This document shows, piece by piece, positions 48,057-59,423 of a DNA stretch of 59,423 nucleotides. The first letter of the stretch is position 1, and the number at the start of each line of letters is the position of its first letter. The notes beneath the pieces are model-generated. The model was not told the DNA's origin. It ran no database searches and was given only the letters and a program-made list of their open reading frames with translations. Location of the stretch: assembly GCA_026983675.1 (NCBI GenBank), contig JALSTP010000096.1, forward strand, positions 1 to 59,423, given 5' to 3'. This stretch comes from Sedimenticola sp. GTDB lineage: Bacteria > Pseudomonadota > Gammaproteobacteria > Chromatiales > Chromatiaceae. The translations under genes were made by a program, and so were the position numbers.

Positions 48057-50435
48057 ATGAAGTTCAGTGAAGCCTGGTTGAGAGAGTGGGTCGATCCACC
48101 CGTGGATATTTCGGAACTGGCCGACCAACTGAGCATGGCCGGTCTCGAGGTGGATGCGATCATACCCGTTGCGCCGGACTTCAGGGGCGTGGTCGTAGGC
48201 GAGGTGCGTTCCGTCGAACCCCATCCCAATGCACAGAAACTGCGCATTTGCCGTGTGGACGTTGACCAGGATGCCGCCCTTACGATCATCTGTGGCGCCG
48301 CCAACGTCGCCGAGGGGATGCGCGTGCCCACGGCGCTCGTGGGCGCAGTGCTGCCAGGGAATCTCAAAATAAAGAAAGCGAAGCTGAGGGGTGTAGAGTC
48401 TTTTGGAATGATCTGCTCGGCATCGGAACTGGGGCTCGAGGAATCTTCCGAAGGCATCATGTCACTGCCAAAGGACGCGCCGGTGGGACATGATATCCGG
48501 GACTATCTTGGTTTGGACGACAACGCCATCGAGCTGGACCTCACACCGGATCGAGGGGATTGCCTCAGTATCGCTGGTGTTGCGCGCGAAGTGGGCGTCA
48601 TAAACCGCACGCCGGTGACCATCCCCACGATGGCGCCCGTATCGCCCGTGATCGAGGATCACGTCGATGTGGTTCTCGAGGCCCCCGAAGCCTGTCCCAG
48701 ATACTGCTGCCGTATCATCCGCGGCATCGACCCTGCCGCAGAGACCCCGATCTGGATGAAGGAGAAGCTGCGCCGCAGTGACATCCGCAGCATCAGTCCG
48801 GTAGTGGACGTGACCAATTATGTACTGCTGGAACTGGGACAACCCATGCATGGCTTCGACCTCGAAAAGGTGGAAGACAGGATCCATGTCCGCATGGCGC
48901 AGCCCGGAGAAAAACTCACGCTTCTCGACGGACAGGAGGTCGAACTTCAGGCAGACTCCCTGGTAATCGCTGATGCCAAGAAACCCCTGGCATTGGCCGG
49001 TATCATGGGAGGAGGCGATTCCGGTGTCACCGAGGGGACCCAGGACATACTGTTGGAAAGTGCCTTTTTTGTACCTACGGCGATTATCGGCAAGGCCAGA
49101 AGCTACGGATTGCACACGGACGCCTCACACCGATTCGAGCGCGGCGTCGATCCTGACCTGCAAGTACGCGCCATGGAGCGGGCGACGGCGCTCCTGGTGG
49201 ATGTCGCTGGAGGAGAGCCGGGTCCAGTCATCGAATCTGTGGAGCCTGCCCATTTGCCGAGTCGAACAAAGATATCCCTGCGCCGTGAACGCATTGGCCG
49301 CGTTCTGGGGGTATCGATCGACGACCACCAAGTGGTAGAGATTCTCACCCGCCTGGACATGGGAGTCACCGAAGCCGAGGAGGGATGGCAAGTGCTGCCC
49401 CCAAGCAGCCGGTTCGATATCGGCATCGAAGCAGACCTCATCGAAGAGATCGGGCGTATCTACGGTTACGAGAACATCCCCATTTCACGGGGACATTCAG
49501 GCAGTGTCATCAGTCCCGTCCCGGAGGCCACCTTCGACCTGGGGCGCGCCAAGCGGTTGCTGGTGGACCGGGGTTACAATGAAGTCATCTGTTACAGCTT
49601 CATCAGCCCGGAGATACATCGGCAATTCGACCCCGAACATGAACCCGTGCGCTTGGCCAACCCCATCTCGGCCGAGATGTCCGTTATGCGCACCACTCTT
49701 TGGCCCAGTCTGGTGCAGACCGCGCTTTACAACGAGGCGCGGCAGCAGGAGAGGGTACGCATATTCGAATCGGGACTGCGCTTTATAGACAATAATGGCG
49801 ACCTCAAACAGGAACTTGTATTGGCCGGTCTGGTGACGGGAGCGCTCTTGCCGGAACAATGGGACGCACCGGCGCGCAACGCAGACTTCTTCGATCTCAA
49901 GGCCGATGTGGAGGAAATCATACGCATTGGCGGACAGGATGGACGCGTGGAATTCGTGGCGGCAGGGCGACCTTCTCTACACCCAGGTCAAAGTGCCAGG
50001 ATCGAACTCTCTGGCGCGCCGATCGGTTGGATCGGCATGCTTCACCCGGCGTTGGAAAAGTCTCTGGGGCTAGCCCGTAGTAGTTATGTGTTCGAACTTC
50101 TCCTGGAGCCGCTCAAGGCCGGCAAATTGCCGCATTTCGAGCCTTTGTCCAAGTTTCCGTCGATTCGCCGGGACATCGCGATCGTGGTTGACGAAAATAC
50201 CACTTTTCAACAGGTAAAAGAATGTGTTACAAAGGAAGCCCCCGAAATGCTCAAGGACATCCTCCTGTTCGATGTCTATACCGGGGAAAATGTAGATTCA
50301 GGCAGAAAAAGCCTTGCTTTGGGCTTGATTTTGCAGGAGAGTTCGCGCACTCTCATGGATGAGGATGTAGAAAAAGCCGTAGGCGCGATCATACAGGGTC
50401 TGATGCGGGATCTTGGTGCACAACTGAGAGAATAA
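48057..50435 (+). CDS. pheT: Phenylalanyl-tRNA synthetase beta subunit
   Basis: A 792-residue subunit with the tRNA-binding EMAP-like domain (about residues 40-150), the B3/B4 editing region, B5 domains and a C-terminal ferredoxin-fold anticodon-binding domain (FPSIRRDIAIVVDE). It forms a heterotetramer with PheS. ihfA starts 3 bp after the stop. Confidence 0.97.
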   Translation: MKFSEAWLREWVDPPVDISELADQLSMAGLEVDAIIPVAPDFRGVVVGEVRSVEPHPNAQKLRICRVDVDQDAALTIICGAANVAEGMRVPTALVGAVLPGNLKIKKAKLRGVESFGMICSASELGLEESSEGIMSLPKDAPVGHDIRDYLGLDDNAIELDLTPDRGDCLSIAGVAREVGVINRTPVTIPTMAPVSPVIEDHVDVVLEAPEACPRYCCRIIRGIDPAAETPIWMKEKLRRSDIRSISPVVDVTNYVLLELGQPMHGFDLEKVEDRIHVRMAQPGEKLTLLDGQEVELQADSLVIADAKKPLALAGIMGGGDSGVTEGTQDILLESAFFVPTAIIGKARSYGLHTDASHRFERGVDPDLQVRAMERATALLVDVAGGEPGPVIESVEPAHLPSRTKISLRRERIGRVLGVSIDDHQVVEILTRLDMGVTEAEEGWQVLPPSSRFDIGIEADLIEEIGRIYGYENIPISRGHSGSVISPVPEATFDLGRAKRLLVDRGYNEVICYSFISPEIHRQFDPEHEPVRLANPISAEMSVMRTTLWPSLVQTALYNEARQQERVRIFESGLRFIDNNGDLKQELVLAGLVTGALLPEQWDAPARNADFFDLKADVEEIIRIGGQDGRVEFVAAGRPSLHPGQSARIELSGAPIGWIGMLHPALEKSLGLARSSYVFELLLEPLKAGKLPHFEPLSKFPSIRRDIAIVVDENTTFQQVKECVTKEAPEMLKDILLFDVYTGENVDSGRKSLALGLILQESSRTLMDEDVEKAVGAIIQGLMRDLGAQLRE

Positions 50436-50438
50436 TCG

Positions 50439-50738
50439 ATGGCGTTGACCAAAGCAGACATGGCGGAGCGCTTGTTCGAGGAATTGGGGCTGAACAAGCG
50501 GGAGGCCAAAGAGATGGTGGAGATGTTCTTCGAGGAGATCCGCATGGCCCTTGAGAATGGAGAACAGGTAAAGCTTTCCGGTTTTGGGAATTTTGATTTG
50601 CGGGAGAAGAAGCAACGCCCGGGACGAAATCCAAAGACCGGCGAAGAGATACCCATTTCTGCCCGACGGGTCGTTACGTTCCGGCCCGGGCAAAAACTAA
50701 AGGCACGAGTAGAGGCATATGCTGGACGCGAGCAGTAG
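50439..50738 (+). CDS. ihfA: Integration host factor subunit alpha
   Basis: A 99-residue DNA-bending protein ([20 protein letters not shown]) with the arm sequence [25 protein letters not shown]-type. It pairs with IhfB, encoded about 16 kb away at 34125. Its position after pheT is the classical one. Confidence 0.96.
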
Positions 50739-51078
50739 TACCGTAGATCTTCCCCCGATTCCGGGCAAGCGTTACTTCACCATTGGTGAAGTCAGCGAAT
50801 TGTGTGGTGTCAAACCTCACGTATTGCGCTATTGGGAGCAGGAATTTCCGCAACTCAAGCCGGTGAAACGGCGTGGAAACCGTCGCTATTATCAACGGCA
50901 CGACGTACTCATGATCCGTCAGATACGCGGGCTCCTGTATGACCAGGGCTTTACCATTGGCGGCGCACGGCAACAGCTCTCAGGCGAAACGGCAAAGCAC
51001 GATATCACCCAAAGCCAGCAGATCGTTCGCCAGATCCGGATGGAGCTGGAAGAGGTTCTCCAGATCCTCAAACGCTGA
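50719..51078 (+). CDS. MerR-family DNA-binding protein of the ihfA neighbourhood
   Basis: A 119-residue protein with a winged-helix MerR domain ([41 protein letters not shown] in part) and a short C-terminal helix. It has no metal-sensing C-terminal cysteines. A MerR-type gene directly after ihfA is common in gammaproteobacteria, but its targets are not known. The start overlaps the ihfA 3' end by 20 bp. Confidence 0.88.
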
Positions 51079-51084
51079 TTCTAT

Positions 51085-51113
51085 TTGACAAGTTTCGACG
51101 CTGCGCCTAGGAT
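51085..51113 (+). promoter_or_regulatory. Sigma-70 promoter of tRNA-Pro
   Basis: TTGACA (51085-51090), a 17-bp spacer and TAGGAT (51108-51113) lie 14 bp before the tRNA. The sequence after the -10 box is GC-rich (GCGCAG), typical of stable-RNA promoters under stringent control. Confidence 0.78.
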
Positions 51114-51126
51114 GCGCAGTCTCTCG

Positions 51127-51467
<341 letters not shown>

Positions 51468-51845
51468 ATGCGGCGATCGTATAGGAAAATAACGGCTGTT
51501 CTTCTCGCCCTGGTAATGGGGATGTCGCCATTGCAGGGGATATGGGCAACGATTGCCTCAGCCGAAGGCCCGCATACGGCAACGCATGGGATGGCAATGA
51601 TGCAAAATGGCCAGATGGCCCATGCGGCTGATCAAGCCGACCACAACTGCAAGAAATGCAGCAACGACCAAGGTTGCCATGGGCACTGTTGCGTATCGAG
51701 CCAGTGCGCCTCTTGTGCCGCCACGGCGCTGCTTCCGGGTTTTGCTTACGCCTTTCCCCATTCCACGGGACGCGCCGTTTTAGTAACGAGCGTACCACTT
51801 CCTATCCAACCGCTCTCCTCTCTATTTCGCCCACCTCGGGTCTGA
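51468..51845 (+). CDS. CopL-like exported Cys/His-rich protein
   Basis: A 125-residue protein with a signal peptide (about residues 1-32) and a Met/His segment (HGMAMMQNGQMAHAA). A dense cysteine cluster follows (HNCKKCSNDQGCHGHCCVSS and QCASC), and the hydrophobic end finishes LFRPPRV. The layout and position directly before copA recall CopL of xanthomonads, a metal-binding protein needed for copper-induced copA expression. Sequence similarity to CopL is judged from memory. Probably binds copper in the periplasm. Confidence 0.55.
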   Translation: MRRSYRKITAVLLALVMGMSPLQGIWATIASAEGPHTATHGMAMMQNGQMAHAADQADHNCKKCSNDQGCHGHCCVSSQCASCAATALLPGFAYAFPHSTGRAVLVTSVPLPIQPLSSLFRPPRV

Positions 51846-51969
51846 CTTCTCTGCAAACAAACGCCGTGCCTGCGGTGTTTGATCGATAAGACTCCGGGTC
51901 TTTACGGCCCGTCGACTATCCATCGGTGGCTCTGTTCTGGCTGCCGGACTGTAGAGGAAGTGAGATTTC

Positions 51970-53925
51970 ATGAGTAGCAATAAGAATCCGATAAGCGGGG
52001 GCGTCTGCCTGACGCGCCGTCGGTTTGTACAAGGGCTGGCAATGGGCAGTGCCGTCGCCGGCATGGGACTGGGCGCCCGCGCCCTCGCTGCCGCCATAAA
52101 GCGGAACGAACCCCCGGTCCTGCGTGGCACCGACTTCAACCTGACCATTGGCGAACAGGCGGTGAACTTTACGGGGGCATCCCGAATCGCCACCACCGTC
52201 AACGGCTCATTACCCGCACCGGTGCTACGTTGGCGGGAGGGTGATCGTGTCACGCTCCGGGTCACCAATATGCTGCCGGAGACCAGTTCCATCCATTGGC
52301 ATGGGATCATTCTGCCGAGCGCAATGGATGGCGTTCCGCACATTGCAAATGATTTTGAAGGAATCCGGCCGGGTGAAACCTTCACCTACCATTTCCCCGT
52401 GAAACAGAGTGGCACCTACTGGTATCACAGTCACTCGGGCTTTCAGGAACAGACCGGCCTGTACGGCCCAATCGTCATCGATCCCATCGAACCGGAGCCC
52501 TTCAGCTATGACAGGGACTACGTGGTGATGTTTTCGGACTGGACCGATGAAGACCCCACGACCGTCTACGCAAAGTTGAAGAAACTCAGCCACTACTACA
52601 ACTTCAACGAACGCACCCAGGCGGACCTTCTCAAGGACATCCGGGAGAAGGGGCTTGCCGCGACCTGGAATGCACGCAAGATGTGGAACCGGATGCGTAT
52701 GAGTCAGCGCGATCTGTCCGATGTGACCGGTTATACCTACACCTTTCTCACCAATGGACAGACTCCGGCAGACGGCTGGGTAGGGCTGTTCAAAAAAGGT
52801 GAAAAGGTGCGGCTTCGGTTTATCAACGGTTCTGCCATGACCTTTTTCGACGTGCGCATTCCCGGCCTCAAGATGACCGTGGTGGCGGCGGATGGTCAAT
52901 ACATCGAGCCGGTCACAGTGGAGGAGATCCGCATGGGCGTGGCCGAGACCTACGATGTCATCGTCGAGCCGAGCAACGACACGGCTTACACCATATTCGC
53001 CCAGGACATCGCCCGCAGTGGCTATGCCCGCGGCACCCTGACCCCTGACCCTTCCATGCGGGGTGAGATTCCCGCCCTGGATCCGGTTGGCAACCTGACC
53101 CACACCGATATGGGGATGGATATGAGTGCGATGGGTCATGACATGGGCGGAATGGACATGAAGGCGATGGGTCATGACATGGGCGGAATGGCCATGAAGG
53201 CAACAGGCCATGACATGGCGGGGATGAAACATGGCAGTCATCGGATGGAGGACGGCGCGATGATGAATGGCATGAAGCACGACCAGCATCGGATGGCCGA
53301 TAGCGGCATGAAGATGGGAATGGATCATCGAACGCATCAGATGGCCGGGATGAAAGGCAATCGGAAAATGAGATCGATGGTTTCAAATCCCTCGGAATTC
53401 ACCGCGGGACCGGTCCATCACGCCAAGACTGAATACGGACCTCATGTGGATATGCGGGCGCAAGCCCCTCAATACCGTCTGGACGATCCGGGCGTCGGTC
53501 TGCGCAACAACGGCCGCCGGGTGTTGACCTACGCGGATCTGAGGAACCTGAGAACGACCCGTGACGCGCGTGAACCCGACCGCGAAATCGAACTGCATCT
53601 CACCGGCAATATGGAGCGCTACATGTGGTCGATCAACGGCATCAAACACGCGGATGCCGAGCCCTTGCGCTGGAAGTTGGGCGAACGCCTTCGCATCACC
53701 TTCGTCAACGACACCATGATGAATCATCCCATGCATCTTCATGGCATGTGGAGCGACCTGGAAACCGGAGACAACGACTTTATCCCCCGTAAGCATACGG
53801 TGATCGTACAACCGGGTTCGCGTATCAGCTACCGGGTTACGGTGGATGCGGAGGGTGGCTGGGCCTACCACTGTCATCTGCTCTATCACATGCTCGGCAT
53901 GTTCCGCACCGTTATCGTCAGCTGA
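51970..53925 (+). CDS. copA: Copper-resistance multicopper oxidase CopA (PcoA type)
   Basis: A 651-residue periplasmic oxidase exported by the Tat route (TRRRF at 15-19). Copper ligands are visible in four blocks: H109-W-H111, H153-S-H155, H586-x2-H589-x-H591 and H634-C635-H636 with H640 and M644, so the type 1 and trinuclear sites are complete. Residues about 378-467 form a Met/His-rich insert with repeated MGHDMGGM, expected to bind Cu(I). It likely oxidises periplasmic Cu(I). It is followed 11 bp later by copB. Confidence 0.95.
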   Translation: MSSNKNPISGGVCLTRRRFVQGLAMGSAVAGMGLGARALAAAIKRNEPPVLRGTDFNLTIGEQAVNFTGASRIATTVNGSLPAPVLRWREGDRVTLRVTNMLPETSSIHWHGIILPSAMDGVPHIANDFEGIRPGETFTYHFPVKQSGTYWYHSHSGFQEQTGLYGPIVIDPIEPEPFSYDRDYVVMFSDWTDEDPTTVYAKLKKLSHYYNFNERTQADLLKDIREKGLAATWNARKMWNRMRMSQRDLSDVTGYTYTFLTNGQTPADGWVGLFKKGEKVRLRFINGSAMTFFDVRIPGLKMTVVAADGQYIEPVTVEEIRMGVAETYDVIVEPSNDTAYTIFAQDIARSGYARGTLTPDPSMRGEIPALDPVGNLTHTDMGMDMSAMGHDMGGMDMKAMGHDMGGMAMKATGHDMAGMKHGSHRMEDGAMMNGMKHDQHRMADSGMKMGMDHRTHQMAGMKGNRKMRSMVSNPSEFTAGPVHHAKTEYGPHVDMRAQAPQYRLDDPGVGLRNNGRRVLTYADLRNLRTTRDAREPDREIELHLTGNMERYMWSINGIKHADAEPLRWKLGERLRITFVNDTMMNHPMHLHGMWSDLETGDNDFIPRKHTVIVQPGSRISYRVTVDAEGGWAYHCHLLYHMLGMFRTVIVS

Positions 53926-53936
53926 GGAGTTCAACA

Positions 53937-54638
53937 ATGATGAGAAAAACCATAGCAGCCGTAGCGGCGGTGGCGTTTTCCATGCCGGCATTCCCGAGTG
54001 GCGTGGACGACCCCCTCCTCTACAAGGTCATGATCGACAAATTGGAGGTGCGCGACGCGAGCGGCCCGAATCCCGTGGTGTGGGATGCGGAAGGCTGGAT
54101 CGGCAGGGACCTCGACAAATTCTGGATCAAGTCGGAGGGCGAACGGGCGGATGACGAGACGGAAGACGCCGAGGTGCAGTTTCTCTACAGCCGGGCGGTC
54201 GCACCCTTCTGGGATTTCCAGATCGGCTGGCGGCGCACTCTCAAACCCGATCCAGACAGGGATTTTCTGGCGCTGGGCTTCAAGGGACTGGCCCCCTATT
54301 TCTTTGATGTGGATGCCAACATCTTCATAGGGGAATCGGGCCGGATCGGCGCCCGGCTGAATGCCGAGTACGAATACCTCTTCACCCAGAGGTTGATTCT
54401 CTCGCCCGAGATCGAGATCAATCTCAATGCGAAGGACGATGAAGCGGTGGGCATCGGTTCGGGGCTCTCCGACATGGAATTGGGGGTTCGGTTGCGTTAC
54501 GAGATACGTCGCGAGTTTGCGCCCTATGTCGGCGTGAACTGGTCCCGCAAGTTTGGCAAGACCGCCGACTACGCGGAGGCAGAGGGGGGCGACACGAATG
54601 ACGTACAAGTCGTCGCCGGCTTTCGTATCTGGTTCTGA
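53937..54638 (+). CDS. copB: Copper-resistance outer-membrane protein CopB
   Basis: A 233-residue protein with a signal peptide (MMRKTIAAVAAVAFSMPAFP) and an outer-membrane beta-barrel of the CopB/PcoB family (GWIGRDLDKFWIKSEGER, VQFLYSRAVAPFWDFQIGWR in part, ending in FRIWF, an outer-membrane C-terminus). The Met/His-rich N-terminal region found in many CopB proteins is missing, so it is a short form. Confidence 0.92.
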   Translation: MMRKTIAAVAAVAFSMPAFPSGVDDPLLYKVMIDKLEVRDASGPNPVVWDAEGWIGRDLDKFWIKSEGERADDETEDAEVQFLYSRAVAPFWDFQIGWRRTLKPDPDRDFLALGFKGLAPYFFDVDANIFIGESGRIGARLNAEYEYLFTQRLILSPEIEINLNAKDDEAVGIGSGLSDMELGVRLRYEIRREFAPYVGVNWSRKFGKTADYAEAEGGDTNDVQVVAGFRIWF

Positions 54639-54707
54639 GTGTTCCCTGCCTGCAGTGGACGCTGTGGGCCAACGGTCCAGGGAAGGACTCTGACAGCAGG
54701 AGAAAGA

Positions 54708-55187
54708 ATGATGAAGGGGAAGCCCCTCATACCTCTGATGGCAGCGAGTCTGATTGGGTTGGCTGCCTGTGAAAAATCACCGCAAGGAAAGGCAGAAGCC
54801 TTGCAGCAAGCGCCAACGGAACCGATTGTATCCGTCGCACGTTGGTACAGCAGCGCACAAGTGGCCCGGGGCAATGCGCTGTTTCAGGAACATTGCGCAA
54901 CCTGCCATAAACCGGATGCCTCCGGCTCACCAAACTGGAGGGAAGCGGATGCCGAGGGCAAGCTGCCTCCACCCCCGCTCAACGGCACTGCCCATGCCTG
55001 GCACCATCCATTGCCCGTCCTGCGCAGGACAGTGCGCATGGGGGGTGTGCCGTTGGGAGGCAGCATGCCGGGCTTTGCGGACAAATTGAACAGCCAGCAG
55101 ATCGACGACATCCTGGCGTGGGTGCAATCCCACTGGCCGGAGGAAATCTACAAAGCCTGGGACAGAATGAACAAGAACGGGACATAG
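54708..55187 (+). CDS. Lipoprotein cytochrome c of the copper island
   Basis: A 159-residue protein with a lipoprotein signal (LAAC, lipidated C21) and a single haem c site C63-A-T-C66-H67. A later Met in GGSMPGFADKL may be the sixth ligand. GGAG precedes the ATG. It lies between copB and the DUF411 gene, all co-directional. It could pass electrons from Cu(I) oxidation or another periplasmic donor, but this is inferred from location. Confidence 0.85.
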   Translation: MMKGKPLIPLMAASLIGLAACEKSPQGKAEALQQAPTEPIVSVARWYSSAQVARGNALFQEHCATCHKPDASGSPNWREADAEGKLPPPPLNGTAHAWHHPLPVLRRTVRMGGVPLGGSMPGFADKLNSQQIDDILAWVQSHWPEEIYKAWDRMNKNGT

Positions 55188-55199
55188 AGGAGATTGAAA

Positions 55200-55697
55200 A
55201 TGAGCAAGAAATCGACCCCGAAAGCAAAAGTGAGGAAAGGCGTAACACGATACGGGAGGCTGGTGACATGGTTGCTCGTCGTCGGTGTCACGGCCGGCAG
55301 CATCCTGATTGCCCGGCAACCGGCGAAGGCCGCGGATGTAGTGGTCTACAAGAGTCCCACCTGTGGATGCTGCAAAGACTGGGTGCGTCATCTCGAAGCG
55401 AATGGCTTTACCGTCGAGGTGCACAATCAGCGGGATCTTGATCCAATCAAGACCGATATGGGCGTGCCACGCCCCTTGCGCTCCTGCCATACCGCCAAGG
55501 TAGGGGGCTATGTCATCGAAGGCCATGTGCCAGCGGACGTGATCGCACGACTTCTCGAAGAAAGACCGGATATCAAAGGCCTGGCCGTACCCGGCATGCC
55601 GATGGGCTCGCCCGGTATGGAAGGACCGCGCAAGGATAGATACAACATCCTGACACTGGAAAAATCCGGATCCGTACGGGTCTACGCAAGCCGATGA
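55200..55697 (+). CDS. DUF411 periplasmic copper-binding protein (CopG-like)
   Basis: A 165-residue protein with an N-terminal signal or anchor (about residues 20-42) and a thioredoxin-like DUF411 domain. The metal site motif C55-G-C57-C58 is followed by SCHTAKVGGYVIEGHVPADVI, which gives another Cys and His. DUF411 proteins named CopG bind copper in the periplasm. GAGGAG lies 8 bp before the ATG at 55200; an upstream TTG is possible. Confidence 0.88.
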   Translation: MSKKSTPKAKVRKGVTRYGRLVTWLLVVGVTAGSILIARQPAKAADVVVYKSPTCGCCKDWVRHLEANGFTVEVHNQRDLDPIKTDMGVPRPLRSCHTAKVGGYVIEGHVPADVIARLLEERPDIKGLAVPGMPMGSPGMEGPRKDRYNILTLEKSGSVRVYASR

Positions 55698-55714
55698 TCA
55701 CTGGGAGACAAACG

Positions 55715-56155
55715 ATGAAAAAGAACTTTTCGCTGAAGGTCATGACCCTGGCGGCCGGTATATTGAGTGGCGCCCCACTTGCCGGGGCGCATTCCCCCTC
55801 GGAACATGCAAGAGTCTATTTCATTGGACTCGAGGATGGCGCGGTGGTGACGTGTCCGTTCACGCTGAAGCTTGGCATCGAGGGCTATGGCATCGTACCT
55901 GCGGGGACAAAAGACAAACGGCGGCATACGGGTGGCCATCATCATGTGCTGGTAGATGTCGACGGATTACCCGATATGGACGCGCCCATTCCCCGCAATG
56001 CGCACTATATCCATCTCGACCATGGAGAAACCACGGTGGTAATCGATCTGCCGCCTGGTGATCACACCCTGCAACTGCTTCTGGGTGATGAGGAGCATGA
56101 ACCCTTGGATCCGCCTCTCCTGTCGAAAAAGATCCATATCCGGGTGAAGGAGTAG
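55715..56155 (+). CDS. DUF4399-domain periplasmic protein
   Basis: A 146-residue protein with a signal peptide (cleavage near LAGAHS) and the DUF4399 pattern: ARVYFIGLEDGAVV, GGHHHVLVDVD, HYIHLDHGETTVVIDLPPGDHTLQLLLGD (in part). It is rich in His, with an HHH cluster, so metal binding is plausible. Function of the family is unknown. It sits between the DUF411 and second cytochrome genes in the copper island. Confidence 0.8.
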   Translation: MKKNFSLKVMTLAAGILSGAPLAGAHSPSEHARVYFIGLEDGAVVTCPFTLKLGIEGYGIVPAGTKDKRRHTGGHHHVLVDVDGLPDMDAPIPRNAHYIHLDHGETTVVIDLPPGDHTLQLLLGDEEHEPLDPPLLSKKIHIRVKE

Positions 56156-56161
56156 ATAGCG

Positions 56162-56620
56162 ATGGCAATGAAGCAGCATAAGGTGCGCTCGCTTTTGGGC
56201 ATTGTCGCAGTCTTGGTGCTCGGAGGTTCCGTATTGGCGGCGGGAATGATGATGAATCGCAGCATGGCCCGTCATCATCAGGGGATGATGGGGGGCATTC
56301 CCGAGCCTTACCGCGACATGCGCAACCCCCTGCCCCGGACGCGGGAGATCGTAGCTCAGGGGCAAGAACTCTTTCAGGCCAACTGTGCTGCCTGCCATGG
56401 TCCGCGCGGCTATGGTGACGGGCCAGCAGGCAAGGCGCTCTCGCCGCCACCGGCGAATCTCAACAGACTCATGAAGATGCGGATGATGGCGAGGGACAAC
56501 TATCTCATCTGGACCCTCAGTGAAGGCGGCAAGGCCTTCCAGACGGCAATGCCTGCATTCAAGGAGACACTCAGTGAAGAAGAGAGATGGAAGATTATCT
56601 GGTTTCTCAGAACACTTTGA
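56162..56620 (+). CDS. Membrane-anchored or exported cytochrome c
   Basis: A 152-residue monohaem cytochrome: an N-terminal hydrophobic segment (about residues 10-28, possibly an uncleaved anchor), a Met/His segment (MMMNRSMARHHQGMM), the haem site C75-A-A-C78-H79, and a probable sixth-ligand Met in TAMPAFKETL. It ends with IIWFLRTL like class I cytochromes. It is the second c-type cytochrome in the island. Confidence 0.87.
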   Translation: MAMKQHKVRSLLGIVAVLVLGGSVLAAGMMMNRSMARHHQGMMGGIPEPYRDMRNPLPRTREIVAQGQELFQANCAACHGPRGYGDGPAGKALSPPPANLNRLMKMRMMARDNYLIWTLSEGGKAFQTAMPAFKETLSEEERWKIIWFLRTL

Positions 56621-56630
56621 CAAAGAAGAC

Positions 56631-56662
56631 TTGACCTGTGCGCAGCGTACAGGTTGTACGCT
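56631..56662 (+). promoter_or_regulatory. MerR-type operator and elongated promoter
   Basis: TTGACC (56631-56636) is the -35 box. A 21-bp dyad (56634-56654) has arms ACCTGT-x-CGC and GCG-x-ACAGGT around a central A, nine of ten paired. A weak -10 (TACGCT, 56657-56662) gives a 20-bp spacer, longer than normal as at promoters untwisted by MerR-family activators. It lies before the Met-rich gene, merR and the ATPase. Confidence 0.75.
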
Positions 56663-56704
56663 TGGATCAGAACGATACGACAAACCAACGAGAGAGGCAG
56701 AGCA

Positions 56705-57019
56705 ATGACACTATACCGATCGACAACCATGGCCCTTTTGACTGCGATTCTGGCGGCCCCCGCGATGGCGGAGAAAACAACACCGGCGCCTATGCCGATG
56801 CAGTCGGGCATGAGGGGAAATATGCCCATGATGCAACAGGGGATGGGCAGTTCTATGCCCATGATGCAGGGCGGCAAGGGTGGCGGTATGCCCATGATGC
56901 CGATGATGCAGAAGAAGCAGGCCATGATGCAGGCGCATATGAAAAGGATGGAGACCCATATGGCAAACATCGAGGCGTTGCTGAGAGAGTTGGTGGCGCT
57001 GCAGAAGAAGCGTCAGTAG
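56705..57019 (+). CDS. Small exported methionine-rich protein
   Basis: A 104-residue protein with a signal peptide (cleavage near PAMAEK) and a central segment made of repeated MPMMQ, GGKGGGMPMMPMM-type motifs, giving very high Met content, followed by a helical tail (HMKRMETHMANIEALLRELVAL). Met-rich motifs bind Cu(I) in the periplasm, so a copper buffer or chaperone is likely. First gene after the MerR-type operator. I do not recognise a named family. Confidence 0.75.
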   Translation: MTLYRSTTMALLTAILAAPAMAEKTTPAPMPMQSGMRGNMPMMQQGMGSSMPMMQGGKGGGMPMMPMMQKKQAMMQAHMKRMETHMANIEALLRELVALQKKRQ

Positions 57020-57042
57020 TTCCGAAACTGGAGGTCCGGCCG

Positions 57043-57486
57043 ATGTTGACGATCCACGAGCTTGCGAAACGGAGCGGGGTGGCGCCCCACGTGGTGCGTT
57101 ACTACGTTCGCATCGGCCTGATCCAGCCTGCCGCCCAGAAGGAGAACGGTTATCGGCTGTTCGAGTCTAAAGAGATATCGAGGCTACGATTCATCCGCAT
57201 GGCCAAGCAACTTGGTTTTACCCTGAACGAGATTCGGCAAATCACCCGCCACGCCGATGAAGGCGACTCTCCTTGCGGCGACGTTCGGAGGATCATCCAG
57301 CACCGTATCAAGGAAAACCGGGCGAAAATCGAACAGATGGAGCATTTGCAGAGCCGCATGGAAGAGGCGCTGGCAAAGTGGGAGGGAATGCCCGATGGCG
57401 TACCTGACGGGCATAGCGTCTGCCATCTCATCGAATCCGTTGAGGTGGAAGAAGACATCATTGACTCATCGAGTCGCGGAGGCTGA
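57043..57486 (+). CDS. MerR-family metal-responsive activator
   Basis: A 147-residue regulator with an N-terminal winged helix ([21 protein letters not shown]), a dimerisation helix and two cysteines placed as in metal sensors: C78 (DSPCGDV) at the start of the long helix and C127 (HSVCHLIE) near the C-terminus. The metal is probably copper given the neighbours, but the C-terminal loop is not the CueR type. GGAGG lies before the ATG; longer in-frame starts would run into the Met-rich gene. Its stop is one base before the ATPase start. Confidence 0.88.
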
Positions 57487-57487
57487 A

Positions 57488-59423
57488 ATGGCACACGTAG
57501 CGAAACTGGCGACACCCTGGCAGGGCAAGGACCCCGTATGTGGCATGGATGTCACGGACGGGAGCGCCCATCATCTCCAATATGAGGGGATGGACTATTA
57601 CTTCTGCAGTGAACACTGCGAGAAGAGATTCAGCGAAAATCCCGCCCGCTATCTGCACAAAGATGAAGAGACGGAGAGACCGGCGGGAAAAACAGTCTCG
57701 CAGCAGATATCGGGTGACGCCTGCTGCCACCACGAGAATGTACACGCTGGGCCCGGGCCGGAGACGGGAGTGCTCTACACCTGCCCGATGCACCCCGAGA
57801 TCGAGCAGGACCATCCTGGCGCCTGTCCCAAGTGCGGCATGGCACTGGAGCCCAAGAGCGAGCCAGCCACCGCCACACGCACCGAATACACCTGCCCGAT
57901 GCACCCGGAGATCGTTCAGGACCACCCGGGGAGCTGCCCGAAGTGCGGCATGGCGCTGGAACCACGTACCGTCGAGCTGGAGGCGAAAAACGAAGAGTTG
58001 ATCGACATGACCCGCCGTTTTCGGGTGAGCGCGATCCTTTCCGTGCCCGTATTCGGGCTTGCCATGGTGGCGGATCTGGCGCCGCAGTGGCTACCAGACG
58101 CCATCTCCATGAAGGCAGTCCAATGGATCGAATTCCTGCTTGCCACACCCGTCGTGCTGTGGGGTGGCTGGCCCTTTTTCAAGCGCGGATGGCAATCCGT
58201 GGTGAGTAGGAACCTCAATATGTTCACCCTCATCGGACTGGGTGTGGCGGTGGCGTGGGGGTACAGTGTAGTGGCACTGTTGTTTCCGGGCATCTTTCCA
58301 CCTTCGATGGTCAGCGGGGAGGGGACGGTAGCCGTCTACTTCGAAGCGGCAGCGGTGATCACCGCGCTGGTGCTGCTGGGCCAGGTGCTGGAGCTGCGCG
58401 CGCGTTCCCGCACCAATGCCGCCATCAAGATGCTCCTGGGGCTTGCGCCCAATACCGCGCGCATCGTACTGCCAGACGGCGCGGAGAGGGACATCCCGCT
58501 GGAAGAGGTGAAGCCGGGCGATATCCTGCGTATACGTCCTGGAGAGAAGGTGCCAGTGGATGGCACGGTGACAGAGGGGGCCAGTTCCGTGGACGAGTCC
58601 ATGGTTACGGGAGAACCGATCCCGGTCACGAAATCGGTGGGGGATCGCCTGATCGGCGCCACCGTCAACGGCACCGGAAGCCTGCTGATGCGGGCAGAGA
58701 AGGTGGGCAGCGATACCCTGCTGGCGCAGATCGTGCGCATGGTCAGTGAGGCGCAACGCTCGCGCGCCCCGATCCAGAAGCTGGCCGACATGGTGGCCGG
58801 CTATTTCGTCCCGGCGGTGGTGCTGGTCGCGGTGATCGCGCTCATCGTGTGGGGATTCTTCGGTCCCGAGCCCAGATTGGCCCACGCGGTGGTCAATGCG
58901 GTAGCGGTGCTCATCATCGCCTGCCCCTGTGCGTTGGGCTTGGCAACCCCGATGTCCATCATGGTGGGCACGGGCAAAGGCGCGACCCTGGGCGTCCTGA
59001 TAAAGAACGCCGAAGCGCTGGAGATCATGGAGAAAGTGGACACCCTCGTGGTGGACAAGACTGGTACCCTTACTGAAGGGCGCCCCCGTCTCGTGGCCGT
59101 GGAACCGGCGGAAGGTTTCGACCGGAACGAGGTGCTGCACCTGGCCGCCAGTCTGGAGCGGGCCAGCGAGCATCCGCTGGCCGAGGCCATCGTGCGTGGA
59201 GCGGAGGAGCAGGGCGTGCCGCTGGCATCGGTCGATGATTTCGACTCAGTCACCGGCGAAGGGGTCACCGGCAAGGTCGAGGGGCACACAGTGGCACTCG
59301 GTAACGACCGCTTGATGGAGCGGCTCGCCGTCGATATGTCCACGCTGGCGGACCGCGCGGGGCAGGGGCGCACAGAGGGACAGACCGTAATGTACGTCGC
59401 CGTCGATGGCAGACCGGCGGGCC
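57488..59423 (+). CDS. Heavy-metal P1B-type ATPase, probably copper exporting, 3' truncated by window
   Basis: 645 codons are present and the gene runs off the right edge. The N-terminus carries a YHS domain (DPVCGMDV, about residues 12-60) and two tandem metal-binding modules of the CPMHPE..CPKCGM type (about 97-128 and 137-167), in place of the usual CXXC ferredoxin-fold domains. Then come membrane segments, the actuator motif TGEP, the transmembrane C479-P-C481 motif, D523-KTGT (phosphorylated Asp) and SEHPLAEAI. The CPC motif indicates Cu(I)/Ag(I) transport. It is co-transcribed with merR. Confidence 0.93.

Follow-up and report, generated by a model that had tools for sequence, protein, structure and literature searches.

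The copper cluster of the window

We analysed a stretch of 59,423 nucleotides from Sedimenticola sp. (assembly GCA_026983675.1, contig JALSTP010000096.1; hereafter the window), which is the entire contig C96 of a source genome of 3.08 Mb in 232 contigs, for the copper gene cluster at its right end. Ten tightly packed genes on the + strand run from position 51468 to the contig end and encode, in this order, a CopL-like protein, CopA, CopB, a c-type cytochrome (cyt1), CopG (DUF411), a DUF4399 protein, a second c-type cytochrome (cyt2), a Met-rich protein, a MerR-family regulator, and a P1B-type ATPase. The gaps from copA to the ATPase gene are 11, 69, 6, -4, 6, 84, 23, and 1 bases, and because they are so short, this part of the cluster is likely to be a single, co-transcribed operon. 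All copper genes named in an earlier note on this DNA are present, in the order it gave and on the + strand, with only the CopL assignment falling short; the two monohaem cytochromes and the DUF4399 protein, which that note had placed inside the cluster, pass PF13442/PF00034 and PF14347, respectively. With a probability of about 0.5, we read the cluster as a CopAB-type periplasmic copper-resistance operon with a predicted accessory redox module.

CopA, a multicopper oxidase with a Met/His-rich insert noticed by eye (51970..53925, +; TIGR01480, 873.5 bits against a cut-off of 478.95), is followed after 11 bases by the outer-membrane protein CopB (53937..54638, +; PF05275, 302.7 bits, cut-off 27), which is the arrangement of a CopAB operon. 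It is not a classical copABCD operon, as copC and copD are not among the ten cluster genes (copD checked by the window gene list only); PF04234 (CopC) gave no match across the whole source genome, and a control search was positive in 4 of 14 genomes. Next comes cyt1 (54708..55187, +; PF13442/PF00034), which carries a lipobox-like LAAC (by eye), a CATCH haem site, and the sequence PNWR...PPPPLNG..HAWHH. Cyt1 is probably lipid-anchored and, with one CxxCH followed by HxWHH, is CopJ-like. The DUF411 protein (55194..55697, +; PF04214, 98 bits, cut-off 27) matches the solved CopG structure 6wis at an E value of 1.6e-36 over residues 50-165 and is accordingly called CopG here. The DUF4399 protein (55694..56155, +; PF14347, 96.7 bits, cut-off 28) belongs to a copper-linked subfamily and has a predicted mature N-terminus at His33, and cyt2 (56162..56620, +; PF00034/PF13442), which like cyt1 has one CxxCH, combines a Met/His-rich leader with a CopT-like haem domain.

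Recurrence of the cytochromes and DUF4399 near copper genes

In a sample of 274 genomes from the window's class, 92 have a CopB (PF05275), at 110 places in all, and the counts that follow cover the best 93 of these (window included; the 17 weakest or broken places and L033, which was found through DUF4399, were left out). Hidden Markov models (HMMs) seeded by the window proteins were run over flanks of at most 6 kb per side. Contig ends cut many loci and the models may miss distant relatives, so that all counts are minimum values. A related c-type cytochrome occurs in 28 of the 93 copB loci, the HxWHH type in 14, the CopL-like protein in 22 (window included), DUF411 in 11, and DUF4399 in five (window included). 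Among the cytochrome open reading frames (ORFs), 34 of 35 lie on the copB strand, which is more than chance. A cytochrome is present in 8 of the 11 DUF411 loci compared to 20 of the 82 others (p 0.0025), and the HxWHH type in 4 of the 5 DUF4399 loci compared to 10 of the 88 others (p 0.0016); for DUF411 in DUF4399 loci (2/5 against 9/88), p is 0.10. These p values are optimistic because the loci share descent and are not independent. The earlier note had made its hypothesis depend on the cytochrome and DUF4399 genes being conserved with copA/copB elsewhere; both are, in the proportions given and also in Thiodiazotropha. The cluster genes do belong together.

Relatives of cyt1 extend well beyond copB. 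At 1e-14 they occur in 76 of the 274 genomes, and in the 40 best-scoring places outside copB loci, chosen by overall score, the best cytochrome carries HxWHH in every case; the HxWHH cytochrome family is defined in this analysis and is not a curated one. Copper markers (CopA, CopB, CopL-like, DUF411, CusA, CusB, or P1B ATPase) lie near 17 of these 40 cytochromes, whereas only one of the 20 control stretches holds any (p 0.003). The controls were positioned manually, and all but one come from a genome that is also represented among the test loci; some of the test stretches are shorter than the controls. The control is not fully independent, since L254 (CusA, CusB, DUF411) shares a contig with the test locus L221; L254 was kept in the count. 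In an alignment of 55 members, picked by the presence of CxxCH and HxWHH, whose own conservation is therefore uninformative, the W of NWR, most of the PPPPLNG block, and an MP stretch are at least 90% conserved. Cyt1 matched 278 records at 1e-5, and five plasmid places among them were examined in detail; the Dinoroseobacter pDSHI03 stretch holds a multicopper oxidase, four cytochromes, a P1B ATPase, and CueR, and in Paracoccus p60130 DUF411 immediately precedes the cyt1-like cytochrome.

A gene for a small, putatively DUF302-like protein is present in 16 of the 40 HxWHH loci outside copB (L205, L206, L208, L210, L211, L213, L216, L217, L220, L223, L225, L226, L227, L232, L233, and L236) and in none of the 20 controls (p 0.0005). 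Such a protein is also found in two Sedimenticola loci (L032, L034) and, by eye, follows DUF4399 in L042 and L044.

For cyt2, 13 close relatives (window included) could be compared, and in 12 of them Met and His make up roughly 10% or more of the 52 residues that precede the haem domain, a proportion for which there was no matched control. Two of these places are copB loci that also bear an HxWHH cytochrome (L143, L145). The cyt2-like gene immediately precedes an HxWHH cytochrome in L267 and precedes a DUF4399 gene in L270; in L269 it follows DUF411, from which a single ORF separates it.

DUF4399 itself matches in 64 of the 274 genomes. When the best 30 places of that search and seven named loci were compared, the scores split into an upper group of 14 sequences (167 bits or more; the top seven places of the search plus the seven named loci) and a lower group of 23 (118 bits or less). 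Within the upper group, copAB adjoins DUF4399 in six loci (window, L033, L040, L041, L042, L044); L003/L039 has DUF411, Met-rich, MerR, and ATPase genes on a contig of 3.8 kb, which breaks off before any copAB could be seen; in six more (L032, L034-L038; Sedimenticola or Chromatiaceae) a Met-rich gene lies close by, and the retrieved stretch gave no copA/copB match; and L007/L043 has no recognised copper gene in 18 kb. The Met-rich gene adjoins the copper-type DUF4399 in six named loci besides the window. All 14 upper-group proteins have a His at the first predicted mature residue and an extra His before the GHHH motif, and in 13 of them an Ala precedes the first His (by eye). Among the lower-scoring sequences, the first position is most often Thr, Ala, or Ser (17 of 23 rows), and L023 and L031 also read Ala-His nearby. 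Apart from a cyt2-like gene in L023, the loci of the lower group (L009-L031, ~2 to 3.4 kb each) hold no other window gene; the search there covered the window genes and not other copper families.

The model of the DUF4399 protein is an Ig/Fn3-like sandwich (mean predicted local distance difference test score 87.4), and its closest likenesses are Ig/Fn3-like domains (top Z 8.8, root-mean-square deviation 2.6, 84 aligned residues), a common fold which is uninformative as to function. The sequence found nothing better than E 0.11 among solved structures and the model no Foldseek match at E 0.001; CopC (5icu) and several lytic polysaccharide monooxygenases (LPMOs) appear weakly (E 0.007 to 0.03) amid many other Ig-like folds. 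In the histidine brace of CopC and LPMOs, Cu is held by the N-terminal amine, the side chain of His1, and a second His. The DUF4399 protein would most likely bind copper; no report of such a role was found in the literature searched by the word. DUF4399 as a stand-in for CopC was considered and rejected, as a comparison by eye of the CopC places (in 36 of the 274 genomes) with the copB places showed no CopC that shared a contig with a copB at a distance of up to hundreds of kb; pairs divided between two contigs would escape such a comparison. Since CopC-free copB loci are the rule in this sample, no exclusion of CopC by DUF4399 is shown. In one further place (L200), four c-type cytochromes have a more distant DUF4399 (38% identity) in their midst, and a thioredoxin-like protein and a P1B-type ATPase follow; the link between DUF4399 and cytochromes may therefore extend past the copper-type subfamily.

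Remaining genes and borders of the cluster

The first gene of the cluster (51468..51845, +) encodes a small exported protein rich in Cys, Met, and His, which is CopL-like rather than a confirmed CopL because its NCBIfam CopL_fam score of 25.3 bits is below the cut-off of 40. By composition, the gene after cyt2 (56705..57019, +) encodes a small protein with 22% Met that is probably exported. The MerR-family regulator (57043..57486, +; PF13411, PF09278) is matched by ZntR, MerR, and CueR models, all below their cut-offs; with 83.4 bits against 147.4 for the CueR model TIGR02044 it does not qualify as CueR, and two ZntR models of the Zn(II) sensor type score slightly higher (92.3 and 86.3 bits). 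The P1B-type ATPase (57488..59423, +; PF04945, PF19335, PF00122) has an N-terminal YHS stretch, two HMBD stretches, and a CPC motif, and is cut by the contig end. It scores 402.6 bits with TIGR01525, above the cut-off, and, in this truncated form, 381 bits with the Cu(I) ATPase model TIGR01511, for which the cut-off is 397. The window end and contig C55 have 323 overlapping bases (98.8%), and the C-terminal part of the ATPase appears on C55. Past the ATPase, genes for three proteins seem by eye to follow on the C55 piece (L258), namely a small SHOCT-like one, one that is heavy-metal-associated-like, and a solute-binding one of ABC type, so the copper cluster may end there.

Upstream, a tRNA-Pro gene (51127-51203) ends ~265 bases before the CopL-like gene. 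A tRNA-borne island was considered and rejected, since no tRNA repeat of at least 12 bases was found on the C55 piece and the G+C content of the cluster is unremarkable. In 51204-51470, no inverted repeat was found that could serve as a MerR operator. Matches to sigma-70-like promoters (3 found, 3.1 expected) and terminators (8 found, 5.7 expected) are near chance. The block upstream of the cluster (pheT, ihfA-like, and MerR-like genes; 48057-51203) recurs in the Sedimenticola contig L032 (13265-16286), on which no tRNA was found; genes for DUF4399, a Met-rich protein, and an HxWHH cytochrome lie at a distance of ~5 to 10 kb from it.

Possible roles and comparison with known copper systems

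By family, Cu(I) export is expected of the ATPase, oxidation of CopA, and copper handling at the outer membrane of CopB. In the operon proposed here, the ATPase would export Cu(I) to the periplasm, CopA would oxidise it using O2, and CopG would interconvert Cu(I) and Cu(II). Cyt1 (with its His-x-Trp-His-His motif and probable lipid anchor) and cyt2 (with its Met/His leader) would take electrons from the copper step or give electrons to it and tie it to the respiratory chain, so that it could run at low O2, and the DUF4399 and Met-rich proteins would bind periplasmic copper. Because the cytochrome pairs with CopG, CopG is a candidate electron partner, and the cytochromes most likely swap electrons with CopG or CopA in periplasmic copper handling. 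We know of no settled account of how periplasmic Cu(I) is oxidised or safely held when O2 is scarce. Conceivably, CopG, the CopJ-like cytochrome, and the copper-type DUF4399 could form an O2-independent route of Cu(I) oxidation, with electrons passing from Cu(I) through CopG and the lipid-anchored HxWHH cytochrome to the respiratory chain and DUF4399 keeping the resulting Cu(II) in a histidine-brace-like site of a new kind, formed around the His at its mature N-terminus; we consider this specific version quite unlikely. CopG has been cited as a Cu oxidoreductase and as helpful under anaerobiosis (PMC8456105).

Several observations weigh against a copper role of the cytochromes. CopA uses O2 and is not known to require a cytochrome; no such cytochrome was seen in the retrieved stretch of 65 of the 93 copB loci, which makes it dispensable to CopAB; 23 of the 40 HxWHH loci outside copB have none of the copper markers; a CcmG-like thioredoxin lies near the cytochrome in 4 of the 40 (L215, L218, L224, L229; by eye), which points to cytochrome biogenesis; and close relatives of cyt2 are few (12 of 274 genomes at 1e-14). 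In addition, deletion of MXAN_3414, a PF13442 cytochrome encoded in the copper-responsive curA operon of Myxococcus xanthus, left copper accumulation as in the wild type, and the mutant made carotenoids at lower copper (PMC3707914, 2013). This deletion and the cytochrome-free copB loci argue against an essential part in detoxification and favour a role under specific conditions such as low O2, or else a role in respiration.

In the latter case, the cytochromes would be copper-induced spare carriers that restore electron flow to the oxidases under copper stress and take no part in copper chemistry, which we regard as somewhat unlikely. The authors of the M. xanthus study propose a role in energy for MXAN_3414 and found copper accumulation unaltered by its deletion (PMC3707914), the title of Durand 2015 names c-type cytochrome assembly as a copper target, and the CcmG-like neighbours would fit as well; yet the HxWHH motif in 40 of 40 relatives and the Met/His-containing leaders of the cyt2-like proteins look copper-facing, and copper genes are near 17 of the 40 loci, a one-sided comparison in which oxidase genes were not searched for. 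The same motif and leaders, together with Met-rich and His-rich proteins as neighbours, could alternatively mean that the cytochromes mainly bind or sense copper, with the haem domain as a scaffold and electron transfer incidental. This appears improbable, as the MP stretch presumably supplies the axial Met and its conservation suggests that redox function has been under selection. That the cytochrome and DUF4399 genes are hitch-hikers which accreted at the tRNA site and have no copper role is highly improbable and already disfavoured. The tRNA-Pro just upstream and the absence of these genes from most copB loci examined would agree with it, but the parts recur in similar order in genomes of other families (e.g., Thiodiazotropha), the cytochrome ORFs keep to the copB strand, the C55 piece has no stretch of the tRNA, and the cop1 cluster of Cupriavidus metallidurans CH34, which has homologues, is copper-upregulated as a whole except for copE and copL (PMC7563307).

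The earlier note had held that neither the cytochromes nor DUF4399 are standard cop parts. For the cytochromes this does not hold: copJ (putative cytochrome c) and copT (putative cytochrome) belong to the C. metallidurans-type cop cluster (PMC12029693), and the synteny in M. xanthus was published in 2013, with 28 of the 50 best matches of MXAN_3414 linked to copper genes (PMC3707914). As a cytochrome finding the window is thus ordinary. DUF4399 looks like an unreported part of such a cluster, and the copper-linked subfamily is modestly new. Cytochromes in copper clusters have been noted before without a proven copper role, and the HxWHH motif, the recurrent pairing with CopG, and the copper-linked DUF4399 subfamily now offer concrete proteins to purify.

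The pMOL30 cop cluster of C. metallidurans (copVTKMNS1R1A1B1C1D1IJGFOLQHEW) and the window both have CopA, CopB, CopG, a P1B ATPase, and two c-type cytochromes. In the pMOL30 record, one cytochrome c adjoins DUF411 and the ATPase and the second lies beyond copM; by position relative to the operon table of PMC9045368, we take them to be CopJ and CopT. Cyt1 is 35% identical to the cytochrome at the copJ position over 107 residues, with PNWR and HxWHH common to both, and copG and copJ are adjacent in pMOL30. Cyt2 resembles the cytochrome at the copT position (Rmet_6106, 274 amino acids, longer than cyt2) at 36% over 89 residues only. The copC, copD, response regulator, sensor kinase, and cupredoxin genes of pMOL30, which stand in divergent operons, are not among the ten cluster genes of the window; DUF4399, the Met-rich protein, and MerR are.

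The curA operon of M. xanthus shares with the window a multicopper oxidase, a P1B ATPase, and a PF13442 cytochrome, the cytochrome likeness being known by Pfam family only; it is under two-component control, and the published rows 3420 to 3413 list no CopB, DUF411, or DUF4399. In the parts of the sources drawn on here, no cop cytochrome of the window type is seen for Acidithiobacillus (PMC7463520) or for Nitratiruptor, in which a cytochrome c is induced by copper and cadmium (PMC10092412). The DUF411 protein of the window aligns with Pseudomonas aeruginosa CopG (PDB 6wis) at CGCCKDW, SCHT, and PGMP. The cassettes of pDSHI03 (Roseobacter) and p60130 (Paracoccus) have in common with the window a cyt1-like cytochrome near a multicopper oxidase and a P1B ATPase, with DUF411 in p60130 and four cytochromes in pDSHI03, and CopB and DUF4399 are not annotated in either stretch. 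In Thiodiazotropha, the order copA-copB-cyt1-DUF411-DUF4399 is like that of the window.

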